Shown one piece after another: positions 7,886 through 40,779 of a stretch of DNA of 44,638 bases. Location: IMG/VR virus record IMGVR_UViG_3300036985_005668, positions 1 through 44,638 of that record; one strand, given 5' to 3'. Below the pieces are notes generated by a model. It was not told the origin of the DNA. It searched no databases and was given only the letters and a program-made list of their open reading frames with translations. The stretch comes from a virus. Within the stretch, counting starts at the first letter, position 1. Each line of letters starts with the position of its first letter. Both the position numbers and the translations under genes were made by a program.

Positions 7886-8163
7886 TCTTCAACTCCAAAA
7901 TGTTCCTTAATCTCGTCATCTGTCAATTCACCGGCTTCCATTTCTAGGAATAGAACCACATCATTACCTGTAAATCGGTCTTCGCCAACTGCCGCATACT
8001 TTTTAGCAGAATAAAGCATACCTGCACGAAACGCTTCTGCCACAATCAACTCGGCGAACTTATCCAAATCTTCGGGCCAACCCTTAAGGAACGTATTGCC
8101 GGCCTGATCCTGCTCGGTCTCAATTCCAGCCTGTTCAACAAGTTTTTCAATTAGTTTGTTCAT
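7882..8163 (-). CDS. FGVE-family small phage protein, paralog 3
   Basis: 93 residues: MNKLIEKLVEQAG, central LDKFAELIVAEAF, acidic linker, and C-terminal DDEIKEHFGVEE. It is the most complete copy of the family here, with a GGAGATGAT ribosome site. See the other copies at 189, 1431, 15756 and 15947. Confidence 0.87.
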   Translation of the reverse strand: MNKLIEKLVEQAGIETEQDQAGNTFLKGWPEDLDKFAELIVAEAFRAGMLYSAKKYAAVGEDRFTGNDVVLFLEMEAGELTDDEIKEHFGVEE

Positions 8164-8172
8164 ATCATCTCC

Positions 8173-8490
8173 TTAAAATGGAATATCGTCATCCATGTAG
8201 TCAAATTTAACCTTCTTGGGCATTGGTGCGACATACTCGGGATTGTTGAAGTTATTGAACACATCCTGATAATTGCCGCGCAAACGGTCCTGATTGGAGC
8301 AGAGTATTTCTGTCTGATCCAAATCAGAGTGGTCACCACTCGGGCATCCCAGTATTGTCACATGACTATTGAAGAACACTCCGTGCCAGTTACCGTTGAC
8401 AACCCAAAAATCAAAGTCAGCCAGACTTCGTTCTTGCTCCACATCAACAAGCAATGATGGCTTACCTTTCGCCCCTAACATCAGTCTCAT
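8173..8490 (-). CDS. Protein with an SSB-type C-terminal tail
   Basis: 105 residues. The last nine residues, DYMDDDIPF, nearly copy the conserved C-terminal tip of bacterial single-stranded DNA-binding protein (DFDDDIPF), the peptide by which SSB recruits replication and repair enzymes. The body (FDFWVVNGNWHGVFFNSHVT...) does not show a clear OB fold, although it is strand-rich; the tail follows a basic linker (PMPKKVKF). SD TAGGAGAAT precedes the ATG. It may be a divergent SSB or a mimic that competes for SSB partners. Confidence 0.82.
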   Translation of the reverse strand: MRLMLGAKGKPSLLVDVEQERSLADFDFWVVNGNWHGVFFNSHVTILGCPSGDHSDLDQTEILCSNQDRLRGNYQDVFNNFNNPEYVAPMPKKVKFDYMDDDIPF

Positions 8491-8590: not shown

Positions 8591-9169
8591 ATGATTATTT
8601 ATACTCTCTATCTAAAAGTCCATCGTAAAACGGGATTACGCTACCTCGGACAAACAAAACAAGATCCGTACTCATACCAAGGCTCCGGCACCGATTGGCA
8701 AGCCCATTTGAAAATTCATGGTAATGATGTTGAAACTATAATTCTTTTCCAAACTAATAGTAAAGAGGAAAGAAACATTTGGGGAATTCATTATAGCTCT
8801 CTTTGGAATATCGTGACAGCAATGGATGACTTTGGTAATAAAATATGGGCAAATCGCATTCCGGAATCCGGAGCAGGAGCATCTACTTTCCCTAAGACAT
8901 TAACACACCGAACGAACATAGCAAATGCCCTCAGAGGAAAAAAGAAAACACCAGAGCATATTGCCAATGTGCGTAAAAATAAAGTGTACAAAACCAAAGG
9001 AGTGATAGTCAATGGTATTCTGTTTGATAGTGTTAACTCTGCCGCAGCACACTTTGGCGTAAAGCACCCCACAATATCCAATCGCCTTGCTGGTCGCAGG
9101 ACCCCGACCAATAGATTTTGGGAAGTACGATGCGCTGACACCTCAGACTCCTATCATCTCTTGAATTAG
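8591..9169 (+). CDS. GIY-YIG homing endonuclease
   Basis: 192 residues. The N-terminal YTLYLKVHRKTGLRYLGQT is a GIY-YIG motif variant (YTL...RYLGQT), followed by a GSG..W..H block. A NUMOD3-like repeat (ALRGKKKTPEHIANVRK) and a NUMOD1-like HTH (SVNSAAAHFGVKHPTISNRL) follow, the usual DNA-binding modules of phage freestanding homing endonucleases. It is the only plus-strand gene in the first 24 kb and its end overlaps the 3' end of the NMNAT gene, so it is a likely insertion. AGGA ribosome site before the ATG. Confidence 0.9.
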   Translation: MIIYTLYLKVHRKTGLRYLGQTKQDPYSYQGSGTDWQAHLKIHGNDVETIILFQTNSKEERNIWGIHYSSLWNIVTAMDDFGNKIWANRIPESGAGASTFPKTLTHRTNIANALRGKKKTPEHIANVRKNKVYKTKGVIVNGILFDSVNSAAAHFGVKHPTISNRLAGRRTPTNRFWEVRCADTSDSYHLLN

Positions 9170-10216
9170 TTGGTAATGATCTTCAAACATGTTTTCAGAA
9201 CTAAGTTGACTGATCGGCACCCACTGTGCGGTTTTAGCATCGTCACTTCCCTTTACCTTAGGTAAATCACCGTCAGGGAGTTCAATCATAAAACAATGCG
9301 TGATCGTTCTACCGCGGGCACTTCGCTCAGGGTGATCAAACACCTGGGTCTTTTTGATACTACCTACTAATACCGGGGCAGGTACCTTGATCTTTGTTTC
9401 CTCACGCAATTCCCTGATCACGCCATCAATAATTCGTTCGTGTTCATTGAGGAAGCCACCGGGAAGCGCAAATAGTCCTTTGCCCGGATATGACTTTCGT
9501 TCCACAAGTAAAATATGACCAGAACACACTACCAGCGCATCAGTGGTAACAAAAATTGGCGGGTATGAAAGAGAGGCAAATTGTCGTTTGTATGTCTCAA
9601 TGAACTCGCGCTCCTGAATAACGCTGGTGCGTTCTGGGCTGTCAATCCAGCCCTCCAACATACGGGCGACAGATTGGGGGACTACACCGCGGATGAAATT
9701 CATATTTACATCTTTGCGGAAGTAGAGGTCTCTGATTTTTGTGGCATTGAGGGGTTCAATCTCCTCAATCTCTTCCATGGCCCATTGAGGGAACATGCTG
9801 AGATATTCGGCAGTGTCGGCCTTCTTGTGACCAATGAGGGCGATGTTGTCGCCTGGTTGTGTGTATTTTGCCACGATGGCCTGTACACGCACTGCCCACG
9901 ATTGATCGTTGTACAGGGTGTCAATGTTGTGTTCTATCCGAACCATGCAGTGATTGTGACCGGTGTGGTCAAACTCACCGGGACTGAAGGTGTTGTTGTG
10001 TTCAAAGGTGTCGCCGATATCGTTGACGACATTGGACAACATCATTTCACGATCCTTGCTTGTCCAAGGATTCTTGTAAGTGCGAGGCTGATTCGCAGAG
10101 CCGACGATGATGACCAGTTGCTTTGCCTGAGCCATTGCTCGGCGGATAATTTCGGCGTGAGCAACAGTGACTGGTTGGAAGCGTCCGATTAGGACCAGAG
10201 TGTGATATTGTTTCAT
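9143..10216 (-). CDS. nadM: Bifunctional NMN adenylyltransferase / Nudix hydrolase
   Basis: 357 residues. The N-terminal adenylyltransferase domain has GRFQPVTVAHAE (residues 11-22) and the second motif LNATKIRDLYF near 155, which bind ATP and NMN. The C-terminal Nudix box GGFLNEHERIIDGVIRELREE is intact near 252-272. The pair converts NMN to NAD+ and may hydrolyse ADP-ribose or related diphosphates. Such NadM-Nudix fusions occur in KVP40-like phages. ATGA-coupled to the gene upstream, and in the same transcription region as nicotinamide phosphoribosyltransferase (11419-12879). Confidence 0.95.
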   Translation of the reverse strand: MKQYHTLVLIGRFQPVTVAHAEIIRRAMAQAKQLVIIVGSANQPRTYKNPWTSKDREMMLSNVVNDIGDTFEHNNTFSPGEFDHTGHNHCMVRIEHNIDTLYNDQSWAVRVQAIVAKYTQPGDNIALIGHKKADTAEYLSMFPQWAMEEIEEIEPLNATKIRDLYFRKDVNMNFIRGVVPQSVARMLEGWIDSPERTSVIQEREFIETYKRQFASLSYPPIFVTTDALVVCSGHILLVERKSYPGKGLFALPGGFLNEHERIIDGVIRELREETKIKVPAPVLVGSIKKTQVFDHPERSARGRTITHCFMIELPDGDLPKVKGSDDAKTAQWVPISQLSSENMFEDHYQLIQEMIGV

Positions 10217-11258: not shown

Positions 11259-11422
11259 TTCTTTTCCAGTTCATTAATTTTCTGCCGATACTCTTTACAC
11301 TTATCAGCCAGATGTTGAATCATTCCACAGGAGATTTCTAACATGGACTCCTCGCCGAAGTATTTCGACCATTTGCGGTAGAAGCCCATGTTCTCCTTGA
11401 TCTTTTCTTCTTTAGTCATCAT
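11255..11422 (-). CDS. 55-residue helical microprotein
   Basis: MMTKEEKIKENMGFYRKWSKYFG ... CKEYRQKINELEKK: a charged all-helical protein whose C-terminal helix may form a coiled coil. Start overlaps the TGA of the NAMPT gene (AAATGATG), stop overlaps the ATG of the HD gene. Two ATGs are possible (11422 or 11419). Function unknown. Confidence 0.7.
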   Translation of the reverse strand: MMTKEEKIKENMGFYRKWSKYFGEESMLEISCGMIQHLADKCKEYRQKINELEKK

Positions 11423-12879
11423 TTCCTTGCGTTAGCACGAACTTCGTCAAAAGTGATTTCCTTCACCAAGACACCATCACGATAGACTTCTGAAAGAGCC
11501 TCGACCCACGGGCCAATGCTCTTGTCAGCCCAACCTCGGGGTTGTTCAACAGCAGATTCAAACGAACCGCCGCTTTGCCAAAGAGTCACGCGACCCTTCT
11601 TGGACTTCTTGCCGTGATCAGTGATCGGATCCTTGAACACATCACGCCAGACAAGTTTATCTACCACTGATACTACTTGCTTTTCGCCAGAGATGACCGG
11701 GGCACGAATATACTCGCGTTCTTTAATACCAATCGAGGAACACTTCATAGCAAACTGTAGTGTGTCACGATTGACCTGTTGAAGCAGCGCACCACCTTGA
11801 CCGAATGCCACGTTGTCAGCAGAGAAGCCAGCCAGTTCCATGACAAACAGAATCGAGCGAATTGTGGCGTGATCGATGCCGTCACCTTGAATGACACGAA
11901 CATTGTTCAGCACTCGGAAGCCCTTGGCGTTCTTCGTAGAACCGTAGTACTTTTCCAGAATGTAGAGGCACTTCGTAACCACTTCGCTTGGCTCACCTGA
12001 GTCAGGACGAATGACAACGACTGCACCGGAATCCAGCACATCTTGTTTCAGTTCAGTGCCCCACATCTTGCAGGCATTGTAAATGTCGTATGAGTCAGAC
12101 ACAAACGCAATCGGAGAACCCGCCTTACCGTGTGTTTTCAGCATGTTCCTGTATGAGTCTACTTCTCCTTCGCGTCCCCAGCTGGTTACTGTACTATGCT
12201 CCATGGCCGGAATGGAGAACCCTGCCATATCAGCACCATAAAACTCCCGAGCATAGAGTAGAGCACTAATGTTATCAGTACCCATGAAGTTGACGAGGTG
12301 AGCGGCGCCCCCGAGTCCAGCACTTTCCAGAGAAGAAACACCGCGAGCGCCAAAGTCATGTAACTTGAAGTCAATAAGAGAAGGGTCACCAGTTTTCTCC
12401 AGGTAGTTGAGAATGATTTTTTTGGATTCGTAACTGTTTGTAGCCACGGTCGTTGGATACCAGATTGCGCGAAGAATCGCGGTTTCCAGGAAACTTGTCA
12501 ACCACCAGCATTTCGGGTCGGTGTTGACGATTGTTGCCAGCACATTCTTCGTCGGAATGAGTGTACCTTCTGCGGCAGCTTTGATGCTGACCGGAAGACG
12601 ACCACCGTGCGCCTCAAGAATGTATTCCCACCCTTCCCGATAAAACGGTTCACCGTGAGCAGTGATGATGGCTTCCGCAACATCGATATCTTCCTTGGTA
12701 ATCGGAGTAGTTAGATACTCTTTAATAAATGCTTGTAGCCCGAAGAATACAGTTTGGTCCCATTGTCCACCGCGTGATTCAATGTACGAATACACATATT
12801 CGGTGTTTTGTGGGTATTGATTGTATTGACTGTACTTGTACGAGTCGGAATTGAGAATGATGTTTTTCGAGAGTTTCAT
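11419..12879 (-). CDS. nadV: Nicotinamide phosphoribosyltransferase
   Basis: 486 residues, full length for NAMPT. Joins nicotinamide and PRPP to give NMN. The catalytic histidine lies in FSIPAMEHSTVTSWG (His228, equal to His247 of the human enzyme); the PRPP/NMN-binding Asp is in VIRPDSGEP (Asp293); FGARG and NFMGTDN provide the nicotinamide and ribose contacts; GQGGALLQ near 360 is the glycine loop. With the NMN adenylyltransferase at 9143-10216 it completes a two-step salvage of nicotinamide to NAD+. AAGGAT ribosome site; consensus promoter with a 60-nt leader. Confidence 0.97.
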   Translation of the reverse strand: MKLSKNIILNSDSYKYSQYNQYPQNTEYVYSYIESRGGQWDQTVFFGLQAFIKEYLTTPITKEDIDVAEAIITAHGEPFYREGWEYILEAHGGRLPVSIKAAAEGTLIPTKNVLATIVNTDPKCWWLTSFLETAILRAIWYPTTVATNSYESKKIILNYLEKTGDPSLIDFKLHDFGARGVSSLESAGLGGAAHLVNFMGTDNISALLYAREFYGADMAGFSIPAMEHSTVTSWGREGEVDSYRNMLKTHGKAGSPIAFVSDSYDIYNACKMWGTELKQDVLDSGAVVVIRPDSGEPSEVVTKCLYILEKYYGSTKNAKGFRVLNNVRVIQGDGIDHATIRSILFVMELAGFSADNVAFGQGGALLQQVNRDTLQFAMKCSSIGIKEREYIRAPVISGEKQVVSVVDKLVWRDVFKDPITDHGKKSKKGRVTLWQSGGSFESAVEQPRGWADKSIGPWVEALSEVYRDGVLVKEITFDEVRANARK

Positions 12880-22134: not shown

Positions 22135-22725
22135 TTACCCCCGTTTTGTCATAACCCTGTCAGCCAAACCGTATTCCACAGCTTTGACCGCTGACATATA
22201 GTTGTCCCGTTCCATGTCAACTGCCAGCATTTCAAACGTCTTTCCTGCGGAGTTGTGATCAACGTAGATTTGGGTCAGAACCTTTTTCATCTCCAAAATT
22301 TCATTGACTTGAATCAGCATGTCAGTTGCCTGACCGTGTGAACCGCCCGATGGTTGGTGAATCATATGACGGGCATTGGGCAGAATGAAACGTTTGTCTT
22401 TGGCACCTGCTTGCGCCAGAAGAGAACCCATTGAGCATGCCTGGCCCATAACGATGGTACTGACATTTGGTGAGATGAAATTCATGGTGTCATAAATTGC
22501 CATTCCGGCAGTGACAGATCCACCAGGAGAATTGATATAAAGGGAAATATCTTTCTTGTCATCTTCTGATTCAAGGAATAGAAGTTGTGCCACAATTAGG
22601 TTTGCCATCTGATCATGGACTTCGCCTTCGAGGAGAATGACTCGGTCCCGCATAAGACGGGAATAAATGTCGTAGGACCGTTCGCCGCGACTTGTGTGTT
22701 CAATAACTATTGGGACTAATGACAT
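22135..22725 (-). CDS. clpP: ClpP-type serine protease subunit
   Basis: 196 residues, the normal mature length. The catalytic serine is in [10 protein letters not shown] (Ser98), the histidine in HMIHQPSGG (His123) and the aspartate in the VDMERD segment near 170; INSPGGSV near 65-72 is the oxyanion and substrate loop. There is no obvious propeptide. The ClpX at 26788-27984 carries the IGF docking loop, so the phage could form its own ClpXP. AAGGAT site before the ATG. Confidence 0.96.
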
Positions 22726-26784: not shown

Positions 26785-26792
26785 TATTTAGG
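26785..26792 (-). promoter_or_regulatory. Late promoter motif CCTAAATA (hsp20)
   Basis: Minus strand; the clpX stop TAA is the first part of the motif. Same CTAAATAGTA context as the motif at the hsp20 stop. Confidence 0.45.
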
Positions 26793-27984
26793 GTAAACCA
26801 ACTACTTTAGGACTCATTACTTGGTCACGATCAATGCTCAGTTCGGTAACTTTATCGTCCCGGTATTTCTTCGTATGGAACATGTGCGGCATCAACACTT
26901 TCTCAACCTCGGTATGGAGCCCTCGCGCTCCAGTGTTCAACTTCATGGTATTTTCTGCCAATTGCTCCACCGCTTCGTCAGTGAATGTCAGTGCGATGTT
27001 ATCCAGACTAAGAAGGTATTGGTATTGTTCCAGATAGTTATTCTTTACCTTGGTAAGCACATGAATCAGTTCTTCCTTGGTAAGATTTGATACGCTCACC
27101 GTTGTGGTGAATCGTCCGATGAACTCCGGTATCATTCCGAACTTGGTCAGATCGTCTGGAGTAACTTGTGTCAGATCACCGTCTTTGTGCGAGTCCTTGA
27201 TCAAGGCGCCGAAACCGATACTGGTACCATTGAGTCGGTTGTCAACAATCTCCTTGAGTCCGACAAAGGCGCCACCGCCGATAAAGAGGATGTTCTTGGT
27301 GTTGACTTCAACCATGTCACCACCTGGATGTTTGCGTCCACCTGACGCCGGAACACGACATACAGTTCCTTCAACTAACTTGAGCAGAGCCTGTTGAACA
27401 CCTTCACCTGACACATCGCGTGTGATACTTGAGCCTTCGCTCTTACGGGCAATCTTGTCAATTTCATCCACGAATACAATGCCACGTTCGGCCAAATCTT
27501 TGTCGCCGCCTGCTGCGTTCAGCAACATGCTGATCATTGATTCAACATCATCACCGACATATCCTGCTTCGGTCAGACTTGTGGCGTCAGTGACAACGAA
27601 CGGGACTTTGAGATACTTTGCCACAGTCTTGGCCAGAAGGGTCTTTCCTGATCCAGTTGGGCCGATCAACAGAACATTACCCTTTGTAATGTCAAGGTGC
27701 TTCGGTGGATGATTCACTCGCTTGTAGTGATTGGCAATTGCCACGCTGAGAACCATCTTAGCCTGTGCCTGTCCGATTATATGATCATCAAGAAATGCCT
27801 TGATAGATTCAGGATCATATTGGATTTCTTCCTTAGCCACAATAGCAGAGTCATCAGCAATCAGACTATCACATAATTCAACACAATCACTACATATGGC
27901 GGCGTCTTCGCCTACTATGAGTTTGGTAACAGAATCCTTATGGTTTCCGCAAAATGAACAGTGGCTTAGTTTTGTATCGGTCAT
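26788..27984 (-). CDS. clpX: ClpX-type AAA+ unfoldase
   Basis: 398 residues. Zinc-binding domain with Cys9, Cys12, Cys31 and Cys34; Walker A GPTGSGKT at 108-115; pore loop GYVG at 141-144; Walker B FVDEID at 171-176; the IGF loop that docks ClpP at 256-258; sensor region GARGLHTEVE near 352-361. All elements of an active, ClpP-binding unfoldase are present. Slightly shorter than E. coli ClpX (424). Transcribed toward hsp20, clpS and, beyond the plus-strand pair, clpP. Weak ribosome site. Confidence 0.97.
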   Translation of the reverse strand: MTDTKLSHCSFCGNHKDSVTKLIVGEDAAICSDCVELCDSLIADDSAIVAKEEIQYDPESIKAFLDDHIIGQAQAKMVLSVAIANHYKRVNHPPKHLDITKGNVLLIGPTGSGKTLLAKTVAKYLKVPFVVTDATSLTEAGYVGDDVESMISMLLNAAGGDKDLAERGIVFVDEIDKIARKSEGSSITRDVSGEGVQQALLKLVEGTVCRVPASGGRKHPGGDMVEVNTKNILFIGGGAFVGLKEIVDNRLNGTSIGFGALIKDSHKDGDLTQVTPDDLTKFGMIPEFIGRFTTTVSVSNLTKEELIHVLTKVKNNYLEQYQYLLSLDNIALTFTDEAVEQLAENTMKLNTGARGLHTEVEKVLMPHMFHTKKYRDDKVTELSIDRDQVMSPKVVGLP

Positions 27985-38018: not shown

Positions 38019-38180
38019 CTATTCCCTTATCCCAAATTCTTGAAACATTTCTTTTGCCACGGCTCTGTACCAGACGATGGCATCTTCCTCGTAGTCATAG
38101 TGAGGACTGAGTTCAACATTTTCGTCATTGTCATCAACCCACACATATACTTGATTGTTGTCGTCACGTAGTAGGTGCAT
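38019..38180 (-). CDS. 53-residue acidic hypothetical protein
   Basis: MHLLRDDNNQVYVWVDDNDENVELSPHYDYEEDAIVWYRAVAKEMFQEFGIRE. Very acidic strand pair plus a C-terminal helix. Three consecutive ATGs occur; the third (38180) is best placed behind AAAGGA. Overlaps the end of 38164-38319 in another frame. Confidence 0.65.
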   Translation of the reverse strand: MHLLRDDNNQVYVWVDDNDENVELSPHYDYEEDAIVWYRAVAKEMFQEFGIRE

Positions 38181-38319
38181 CATCATCCTTTATTTCTGTT
38201 ACTGTAACTGAACTGGCGCTAAAATCTAATTGCTCAAAGATAAACTCTTTACAAGCCGCGGCCATTTCCTCTTCGGATTCATATCCGTCTAACCATAAAT
38301 CAACTATGAATCTTGGCAT
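38164..38319 (-). CDS. 51-residue hypothetical protein
   Basis: [51 protein letters not shown]: strand, helix, strand. The pattern W-x-DGY-E-S-E-E-E-M-x-x-AC...L-DFSASSV resembles small phage proteins of unknown role. GGAGAAAT site; ATG overlaps the TAA of the DHFR-like gene (TAATG). Confidence 0.7.
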   Translation of the reverse strand: MPRFIVDLWLDGYESEEEMAAACKEFIFEQLDFSASSVTVTEIKDDDAPTT

Positions 38320-38504
38320 TATTTCTCCAAAGGGGTCCATGGTTCAAGGGCCTTTACTGGATAGATTTGAACTGATCCTTGTTCAAACCAACTCTCGACG
38401 GCATAGCCCTCAGGGGTCAGCACTGTTGAATACGTGCCCACCACCATCCCGTGCCATTGAGACCCGGAAGTCTTTTTTACAAAATCACCTATTTCAAACT
38501 TCAT
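38319..38504 (-). CDS. dfrB: Type B (R67-like) dihydrofolate reductase
   Basis: 61 residues. The sequence aligns with almost the whole SH3-barrel of plasmid R67 [13 protein letters not shown] (Lys11 and Trp17 equal R67 Lys32 and Trp38), [10 protein letters not shown] (identical), and GSVQIYPV (Gln46-Ile47-Tyr48 equal the catalytic Gln67-Ile68-Tyr69). The N-terminal disordered 20 residues of R67 are missing. R67-type enzymes are tetramers that reduce dihydrofolate with NADPH and are intrinsically insensitive to trimethoprim. The start overlaps the TGA upstream (GAATGA), with GGAAG nearby. Confidence 0.9.
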
Positions 38505-38758
38505 TCTAATAACTTCCAATCTGGTATGTTCAATGCTTCTTCAATGAAAGCCGCTTCGCCTATTGGGCGCAGATGCAGTGTCACTTTAATTTCGTCGCGA
38601 CCTGTCTCAAATCGTCGGCTTTCGTCCATACGAAGAAAGCCTGTGTGCGTCAGCGTGAAACTCGGAAACAATTCAGCGCACATTTTATCCATGTGAACTT
38701 TTAGGCGTTCGTGTGTTCGCTTTGACGACTCGTCCTTGAACCATTGAGGGCCGTTCAT
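38501..38758 (-). CDS. 85-residue hypothetical protein
   Basis: [78 protein letters not shown].... Helical first half, then strands. ATGA-coupled to both neighbours, including the DHFR gene. No family recognised. Confidence 0.75.
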
Positions 38759-39562: not shown

Positions 39563-39782
39563 TCAAATTCTCCCACATAAATTCATCTTCTCTTACATAC
39601 GCAACAGGCTTGAGCCAACCGTTTGCGATACACTCCCTGATAACTGTCACATACGAATCATAACAGTTTCGGTCAATTTCAAAACCGGCGCGAGGACTAA
39701 CCATATGTCCATCAGTGATCATCCATCGGTGATCACCTTTGCGTATCGTTTTGATACGGCTTTTCTTATCAAGTATTGTCAC
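39552..39782 (-). CDS. 76-residue hypothetical protein with GTG start
   Basis: Begins (V)TILDKKSRIKTIRKGDHRWMITDGHMVSPRAGFEIDRNCYDSYVTVIRECIANGWLKPVAYVREDEFMWENL. A GTG at 39782 follows CAGGAG by a good distance and overlaps the 3' end of the nuclease gene; the longer TTG frame is less likely. The I-x-x-CI-x-NGWL-KPVAYV end is typical of a small phage family without a known role. Confidence 0.75.
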   Translation of the reverse strand: MTILDKKSRIKTIRKGDHRWMITDGHMVSPRAGFEIDRNCYDSYVTVIRECIANGWLKPVAYVREDEFMWENLNED

Positions 39783-40779
39783 GCAACACTCCTGTATAAG
39801 CAATATTCAACCACCGCGAATAAGTATCGGCGTTCTCGCTCAACTTATTCAGATCATATTTGCCGCAGAACTTCAAAAAGTGAAGTCCAACTTGACCTAC
39901 GTGTGCTGTACGAACACCCTCAGTTATAACCGCGTCACACGCATCCTTGATTTGTTTAGGCTGAGCCGTGAGGTCAACCAGAATGACATTCCGTTGATAG
40001 TCATCTTTGACGCGATGCTCCACTCCGTCGTGGTCTGTCCACCTTTGTAATAGTAAATTATTCCAATCAAACCCTTGCTTGTACCGATCGGCATACGCCT
40101 CAGTAAGTCCGACTTTGTTCTTTGTGCCTTTTGTTCGTACACCAGGATACGCCGAAAATACATTGTCAGTCGGATCACCTCGCATACACTTTTCAAAAAG
40201 GATAAACTGCGGATCTTCCAGTAATTTCGGTTCTTTTGTTTTCTTGTCTTTGATCAGGTTGTACTTGTGATCGTGGTAACCTTCAAGAGTGATGTATTGA
40301 TCTGTGATGCCATTATATTGGAAAACATTCGGCGCAACCAACTGTAAAAAATCGGTGTCCGAGGAAATTATGTAGTGGATGTCATCGGGGTGAAGGTGAA
40401 TGAACCTGGCAATCAGGTCGTCCGCTTCTGCGTTCGGCTCACGCAGAACACTGGCGTTGGTCTTGTCTTTGAGGTAGGCGATAAGAGCGTCAAAAGTTTC
40501 CCAAAAGAGTTGCGATTCTTCGCGCTCGGCCTCAGTAAGATCCTTATCATTTACGACTCGGTTTCCTTTGTAGGGCTTATAGAAATCCTTACGCCATGAA
40601 TGTCCCTCAAGGAGGAACACCACATGAATGTCAGGACCGAAACGTTTCACAATCTTGTTGACAGATGCGAAAACGAGATGGAGAGCGTATCCCACTTTCT
40701 CCCAAGAATCGGAATTCTTAGAGGCCATATGTCGCATCCGAAAGTAAAGATTTGCAGTGTCAATAAGGGCGTATTTCAT
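39769..40779 (-). CDS. FEN/PIN-family 5'-3' nuclease (T4 RNase H type)
   Basis: 336 residues. ALIDTANLYFRMRH at 4-17 (Asp7), EADDLIARF near 116-124 (Glu/Asp pair), IISSDTDFLQLV near 137-148 and KCMRGDPTDNV...YPGVRTKGTKNKVGL with the helix-hairpin-helix place the acidic metal ligands of the FEN family. In T4-like phages this enzyme removes RNA primers or flaps during lagging-strand synthesis, then DNA ligase seals. Consensus promoter; no Shine-Dalgarno sequence before the ATG. Confidence 0.92.
   Translation of the reverse strand: MKYALIDTANLYFRMRHMASKNSDSWEKVGYALHLVFASVNKIVKRFGPDIHVVFLLEGHSWRKDFYKPYKGNRVVNDKDLTEAEREESQLFWETFDALIAYLKDKTNASVLREPNAEADDLIARFIHLHPDDIHYIISSDTDFLQLVAPNVFQYNGITDQYITLEGYHDHKYNLIKDKKTKEPKLLEDPQFILFEKCMRGDPTDNVFSAYPGVRTKGTKNKVGLTEAYADRYKQGFDWNNLLLQRWTDHDGVEHRVKDDYQRNVILVDLTAQPKQIKDACDAVITEGVRTAHVGQVGLHFLKFCGKYDLNKLSENADTYSRWLNIAYTGVLRDNT

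Follow-up and report, generated by a model that had tools for sequence, protein, structure and literature searches.

Since the 1970s it has been hard to account for dihydrofolate reductases of the R67 type (DfrB), primitive and drug-proof enzymes of obscure origin and native role. In R67 itself, both ligands are bound through their negative charges by K32, and W38 lies at the tetramer interface (PMC9835603). Phage homologues have been described as well, and two of these, DfrB-H3 from a Pseudomonas phage and DfrB-H4 from a Vibrio phage, were assayed; DfrB-H4 gave trimethoprim resistance, DfrB-H3 gave no resistance and no visible expression, and the endogenous function of DfrB homologues was called unknown (PMC9835603). 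Further, four virome contigs with dfrB have been listed (PMC7265639) and eight dfrB genes have been counted in lytic phages (PMC12466917). Searches of GenBank phages returned 26 hits, several of them annotated as dihydrofolate reductase, and a gene labelled “R67 dihydrofolate reductase” (MW202697) encodes a product 75% identical to the protein described here. Phage DfrB as such is thus already known, and the first-pass annotation of the present locus overstated its novelty. Gene clusters for 7-deazaguanine have likewise been reported from phages, in an article whose main text does not mention dihydrofolate reductase (PMC6884629).

The locus analysed here lies in a virus record of 44,638 bases (the window), which is probably a fragment. 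A DfrB in a phage is by itself ordinary, and the interest of this one resides in the native role indicated by its close phage relatives: in nature the enzyme most likely works in the pterin chemistry of phages rather than in drug resistance.

Gene structure and family membership

The dfrB-like gene occupies positions 38319-38504 on the minus strand and encodes a standalone R67-type SH3-like domain of 61 amino acids; a plus-strand reading of the same interval was ruled out, as stop codons interrupt the frame. A Shine-Dalgarno-like GGAAG (38513-38517, minus strand) is located 8 nt 5' of the ATG. On the same strand, the TGA of an upstream 85-aa ORF (38501-38758) overlaps the dfrB start (ATGA), and the ATG of a downstream ORF of about 51 aa (38164-38319) overlaps the dfrB stop (TAATG). 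Both ORFs are of unknown function and have no homologue at other DfrB loci, and the upstream one has no PHROG match.

The ORF is real and its product is a genuine phage member of the R67/DfrB family, as the first-pass annotation had proposed. It matches Pfam PF06442 (R67 dihydrofolate reductase) with E=1e-20 and 73.6 bits (cut-off 25 bits), and R67 chains in the PDB match its residues 3-54 with E=2e-16. Identity to R67 is about 60% over 57 columns, while integron DfrBs are 65-68% identical over approximately 52-56 residues. Alignment to R67 also bore out the residues that had been said to be kept, with the equivalent of K32 at residue 11 (38472-38474), that of W38 at residue 17 (38454-38456) and the VQIY pore motif (V66-Y69 of R67) at residues 45-48 (38361-38372), all on the minus strand; the Lys and Trp are invariant in the alignments, the TPEGYAVES segment is present, and so are T51, G64 and S65. 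The disordered N-terminal tail of R67, about 20 residues long, is absent, in agreement with the earlier description. A structural comparison with R67, which had been suggested as a check, was run on the AlphaFold monomer (pLDDT 93), and the predicted SH3-like protomer superposes on R67 PDB entries with TM 0.90-0.97 and rmsd 0.6-0.8 A.

The protein stands outside the numbered DfrB resistance alleles, for which 78 residues, an N-terminal tail and an integron or mobile context are the criteria, as it has 61 residues and phage neighbours only. Its score against NCBIfam NF000331 (trim_DfrB) is 84 bits, under the curated cut-off of 137. Among the features looked for in R67/DfrB proteins (PF06442), W45, which lies at the monomer-monomer interface of R67, is replaced by Thr (T24). 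As this Trp is dispensable and is not conserved in other homologues (PMC9835603), a protein that lacks it can still belong to the broader family.

Conservation of VQIY in a first large scan was discounted, as the scan pattern itself contained VQIY, and a scan with only the 40 N-terminal residues as pattern was substituted (80 loci, 60 distinct phage sequences). The motif was kept in all 60 distinct sequences, the exceptions known among remote members being VQLY in L287 and VQVW in L333. Furthermore, K32, W38 and VQIY are retained across standalone phage members, and dN/dS is about 0.05 within the T4-like clade of DfrB. Such conservation and purifying selection at the sequence level favour a working pore, which may be catalytic, over a mere scaffold. 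The domain might alternatively be a non-catalytic SH3-like module that binds nucleic acid or partner proteins and is freely fused and shuffled, its reductase activity being a by-product of the fold. This is in keeping with the fusion of a DfrB domain to DUF3850/ASCH in one locus (L018, 522-1196), with long N-terminal extensions without Pfam matches in others (L019-L024, L082-L097) and with the many small phage SH3-like proteins of weakly similar fold; adventitious activity was also proposed by the authors whose Pseudomonas phage DfrB-H3 gave no resistance (PMC9835603). Nevertheless, a pure binding module is unlikely, given that K32, W38 and VQIY are kept under strong purifying selection in standalone phage members and that these members adjoin pterin-using enzymes far above chance (see below).

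Distribution and phylogeny

Relatives of the window DfrB were found on 254 IMG/VR contigs, whereas a set of 84,980 species genomes of bacteria and archaea gave 40 hits. A phylogeny with phage homologues (107 domain sequences over 58 columns, with many open forks and no root) had been put forward as a further check, and in it the window protein nests among phage DfrB sequences, within a supported phage clade of 12 rows (99/87). The canonical DfrBs of integrons group with betaproteobacterial copies in a separate clade (97/89), members of which share essentially no neighbours with DfrB phages. Six non-canonical bacterial copies (L100, L104, L107, L108, L115 and L130) have neighbours in common with DfrB phages and therefore look like prophages. 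The earlier suggestion that phages are a natural reservoir or source of the family stands in its first half, the contig counts supporting a phage reservoir, and is not borne out in its second: with an unrooted tree of few columns and the canonical DfrBs in a clade of their own, phages as the proven ancestor of canonical DfrB are unsupported.

Recent capture of an integron resistance gene by a phage, for which the identity to integron DfrBs given above might speak, is so improbable that it was rejected. The gene nests among phage sequences, apart from the canonical clade, and its score lies under the NCBIfam DfrB cut-off. No integron or transposase occurs among the neighbours examined, which upholds the earlier remark that no integron or mobile element adjoins the gene, and neither a near-identical integron-cassette copy nor an attC site beside the gene was seen. 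Moreover, synonymous sites are near saturation even in comparison with the nearest phage relatives (pS 0.69-1.0), and the window dfrB is therefore old.

A non-canonical DfrB was also observed within class 1 integron arrays (L030, 3977-4180, from P. aeruginosa pHN39-SIM, and L031). It is 100% identical in six Pseudomonas plasmids, is oriented in reverse to the neighbouring cassettes and resembles phage sequences (76% to L008) more closely than it does DfrB1. Its attachment to the phage-rich side of the tree is weak (80/72), and given that support it is not claimed as a bridge between phages and integrons.

Genomic setting of the window

The window carries RIIA/RIIB, RNA and DNA ligases and an exonuclease (phrog_107; 39769-40779, minus strand), the last being a conserved syntenic anchor that DfrB-carrying relatives have in common with the window, together with several unknown genes. 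No nucleotide match to sequenced phages was obtained for the window. Among the T4 hallmarks, the RIIA, RIIB and RNA ligase families are found in the window and gp23 only in two syntenic relatives (G010, 79 kb, and G031, 367 kb), and “T4-like” is a fair label for the probable affiliation of the phage. The description of the surroundings as a conserved T4-like operon could not be maintained, as the immediate flanking ORFs are peculiar to this DfrB locus and the gene lies several kb from the window position in most syntenic relatives, L005 having it at the window position. The dfrB of the window belongs to a variable block of accessory genes with conserved genes on either side.

The same fragment encodes a phage NAD+ salvage pair, namely an NMN adenylyltransferase/Nudix protein (9143-10216) and a nicotinamide phosphoribosyltransferase (11419-12879), as well as a ClpX-like AAA+ unfoldase (26788-27984) and a ClpP-like protease (22135-22725), all on the minus strand.

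Linkage of relatives to pterin and 7-deazaguanine genes

Clustering of the gene neighbours of 92 DfrB loci brought out QueD-, QueE-, FolE- and TGT-like genes. QueD was identified through PF01242 (3e-15), PHROG (8e-36) and its nearest PDB relative, 6-carboxy-5,6,7,8-tetrahydropterin synthase; QueE through PHROG (1e-50) and a PDB match to 7-carboxy-7-deazaguanine synthase; and FolE through PF01227 (1e-39), with GTP cyclohydrolase also indicated via PHROG. The TGT/DpdA-like gene obtained no identity from Pfam, PHROGs, NCBIfam or PDB sequence, and its hhalign alignment to E. coli Tgt was weak; the two lines that suggest its assignment are an invariant GDSGGFQ motif and a Foldseek search with a low-confidence model (pLDDT 55), in which the top 24 matches were all transglycosylases. 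The copies in L014 (8256-9998) and L007 (8382-9995) belong to a divergent TGT/DpdA-like family and are 77% identical to each other, and jumbo phages, PA5oct among them, have relatives 28-35% identical to these that are recorded as “hypothetical”.

FolE, QueD, QueE and/or the TGT/DpdA-like gene were present in the examined flanks of 35 of the 65 distinct IMG/VR DfrB genes, and were on the strand of DfrB in every placement (95/95). A direct neighbour was one of the four genes in 31 of these 35, where 6.9 would be expected with DfrB placed randomly among the same ORFs, a comparison without an independent-sample p-value because the loci counted are related. The partner varies, the arrangements being FolE-DfrB, QueD-DfrB, DfrB-QueE and TGT-like-DfrB, and in the example loci read (L058, L063, L059, L014 and L335) overlapping stop-start junctions occur at FolE-DfrB (L058), QueD-DfrB-QueE (L063), DfrB-QueE (L059) and TGT-like-DfrB (L014). 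All linked rows of the tree fall within one set of 39, which includes the window.

The 44.6 kb of the window contain no QueD, QueE, FolE, QueC or TGT-like gene, and its nearest syntenic relative (L005/G041) has none of the QueD/QueE/FolE/TGT-like set in 26 kb; the link for the window thus rests on phylogeny. Many DfrB phages are without QueD, which is absent from all ten DfrB phage isolates examined, and it may be because of such absences, in the window, in L005/G041 and in the isolates, that the deazaguanine link has gone unnoticed. DfrB is also optional in QueE clusters, being carried by 9 of 80 QueE-anchored loci, and the gap between QueD and QueE can instead hold a FAD oxidoreductase or small ORFs of other kinds. 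In L344 and L352, for example, a FAD-dependent D-amino-acid-oxidase-like gene occupies the gap where relatives have DfrB. The FolE-QueD-QueE clusters of L045, L059, L063, L077 and their relatives mostly have no recognisable QueC, so that these pathways may stop at 7-carboxy-7-deazaguanine or have an end product that depends on the host. No paper joining R67 dihydrofolate reductase and queuosine was found in the open-licence literature, and the occurrence of DfrB inside phage 7-deazaguanine gene sets appears to be new.

Association with folate genes

DfrB could instead replace FolA (T4 frd) in dTMP synthesis, returning the dihydrofolate formed by ThyA to tetrahydrofolate, and the que neighbours would then reflect a shared early region for pterin and nucleotide genes. 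FolA is indeed missing from all 74 DfrB-carrying records examined, and among ThyA-positive records it was found in 0 of 7 with DfrB and in 21 of 33 without (Fisher p=0.003), in a pooled test where five of the seven DfrB-positive records are other phage types. When the comparison is confined to records with a related ThyA in the window's own group, the counts are 0 of 2 and 21 of 33 (p=0.15, too few cases). Further, related DfrB domains reduce dihydrofolate and confer trimethoprim resistance (PMC9835603), and in L335 (9989-11294) the DfrB and ThyA genes overlap and a dCMP-deaminase-like ORF (7992-8432) lies immediately upstream of them, an arrangement that is possibly a non-FolA dTMP cassette. 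However, ThyA was found in only 7 of 74 DfrB-positive records and ThyX in 2 of 50, many of these records being fragments; several ThyA-positive jumbo phages have neither reductase; and DfrB mostly adjoins QueD, QueE, FolE or the TGT-like gene, not ThyA. A folate role of DfrB is therefore plausible in some phages, while substitution for FolA is unlikely to be what the gene is there for.

Proposed function

The window gene probably encodes a phage NADPH-dependent dihydropterin reductase that serves 7-deazaguanine and/or folate synthesis. The basis of this pterin reading is family membership, the predicted fold, the conservation of pore residues and the operon-level linkage in relatives. Four copies of the standalone R67-type (PF06442) subunit would assemble into a D2 tetramer with a single central pore, where NADPH and a 7,8-dihydropterin would meet; C6 of the N5=C6 imine would receive a hydride from NADPH and N5 would be protonated from solvent, as in R67. 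In close relatives, dfrB is part of the FolE-QueD-QueE-TGT/DpdA-like group of genes for 7-deazaguanine synthesis, which most likely serves to protect phage DNA. FolE yields dihydroneopterin triphosphate, and QueD yields 6-carboxy-5,6,7,8-tetrahydropterin, which QueE consumes. Oxidation turns tetrahydropterins into the 7,8-dihydro form, the N5=C6 bond of which is the one that R67 reduces in dihydrofolate. The best guess for these relatives is a conversion of 6-carboxy-7,8-dihydropterin back to 6-carboxy-5,6,7,8-tetrahydropterin, the product of QueD needed by QueE; since pores of the R67 type are open and not strictly specific, the carboxy-dihydropterin would be a reasonable substrate. Counting against such a role, QueE functions without DfrB in known pathways. 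In phages with ThyA, DfrB may also, or instead, reduce dihydrofolate. As for the window, dfrB may have moved out of a deazaguanine cluster, or the cluster may lie beyond this fragment. By analogy with the relatives assayed, the window protein would be expected to be insensitive to trimethoprim and to reduce dihydrofolate with NADPH (PMC9835603).

In large phages, close relatives are translationally coupled to FolE, QueD, QueE and a gene like those of transglycosylases. This coupling points to a specific native role in pterin metabolism, which suggests why such an enzyme predated trimethoprim, and adds a possible extra reductase to the phage DNA-modification pathways that aid evasion of restriction. 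A wider proposal, that dihydropterin reduction in 7-deazaguanine biosynthesis (6-carboxy-7,8-dihydropterin to the tetrahydropterin used by QueE) is the native reaction of R67/DfrB as a whole or, more narrowly, of the large phage branch, and that the clinical trimethoprim-resistant enzyme is a by-product of this more ancient pterin reductase, is tentative and somewhat doubtful at present.

Comparison with known systems

The window protein resembles R67/DfrB1 (PF06442; PDB 1VIE, 2RK1) in its SH3-like fold, K32, W38, a stretch of 13 residues and loop lengths, and differs from it in the missing tail of about 20 residues, the Thr in place of W45, the non-integron setting and a score below the trim_DfrB cut-off. 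With DfrB-H3 and DfrB-H4 (PMC9835603) and MW202697 it shares a phage-borne PF06442 domain, K32, W38 and VQIY, W45 being unconserved there too; DfrB-H3 and DfrB-H4, however, are fused to extra domains, whereas the window encodes the domain alone, and in a phage of larger size. The phage 7-deazaguanine clusters (FolE, QueD, QueE, QueC and DpdA/DpdA2; PMC6884629) are comparable in that relatives of the window gene stand between these genes, although the clusters of those relatives are mostly without a recognisable QueC and the window fragment has no such cluster. The frd-td pair of T4 (FolA-ThyA) finds a counterpart in the reductase-ThyA overlap of L335, and FolA is likewise close to ThyA in ThyA-positive phages without DfrB. 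Unlike that pair, most DfrB records are without ThyA, and DfrB is unrelated to FolA in both sequence and fold.
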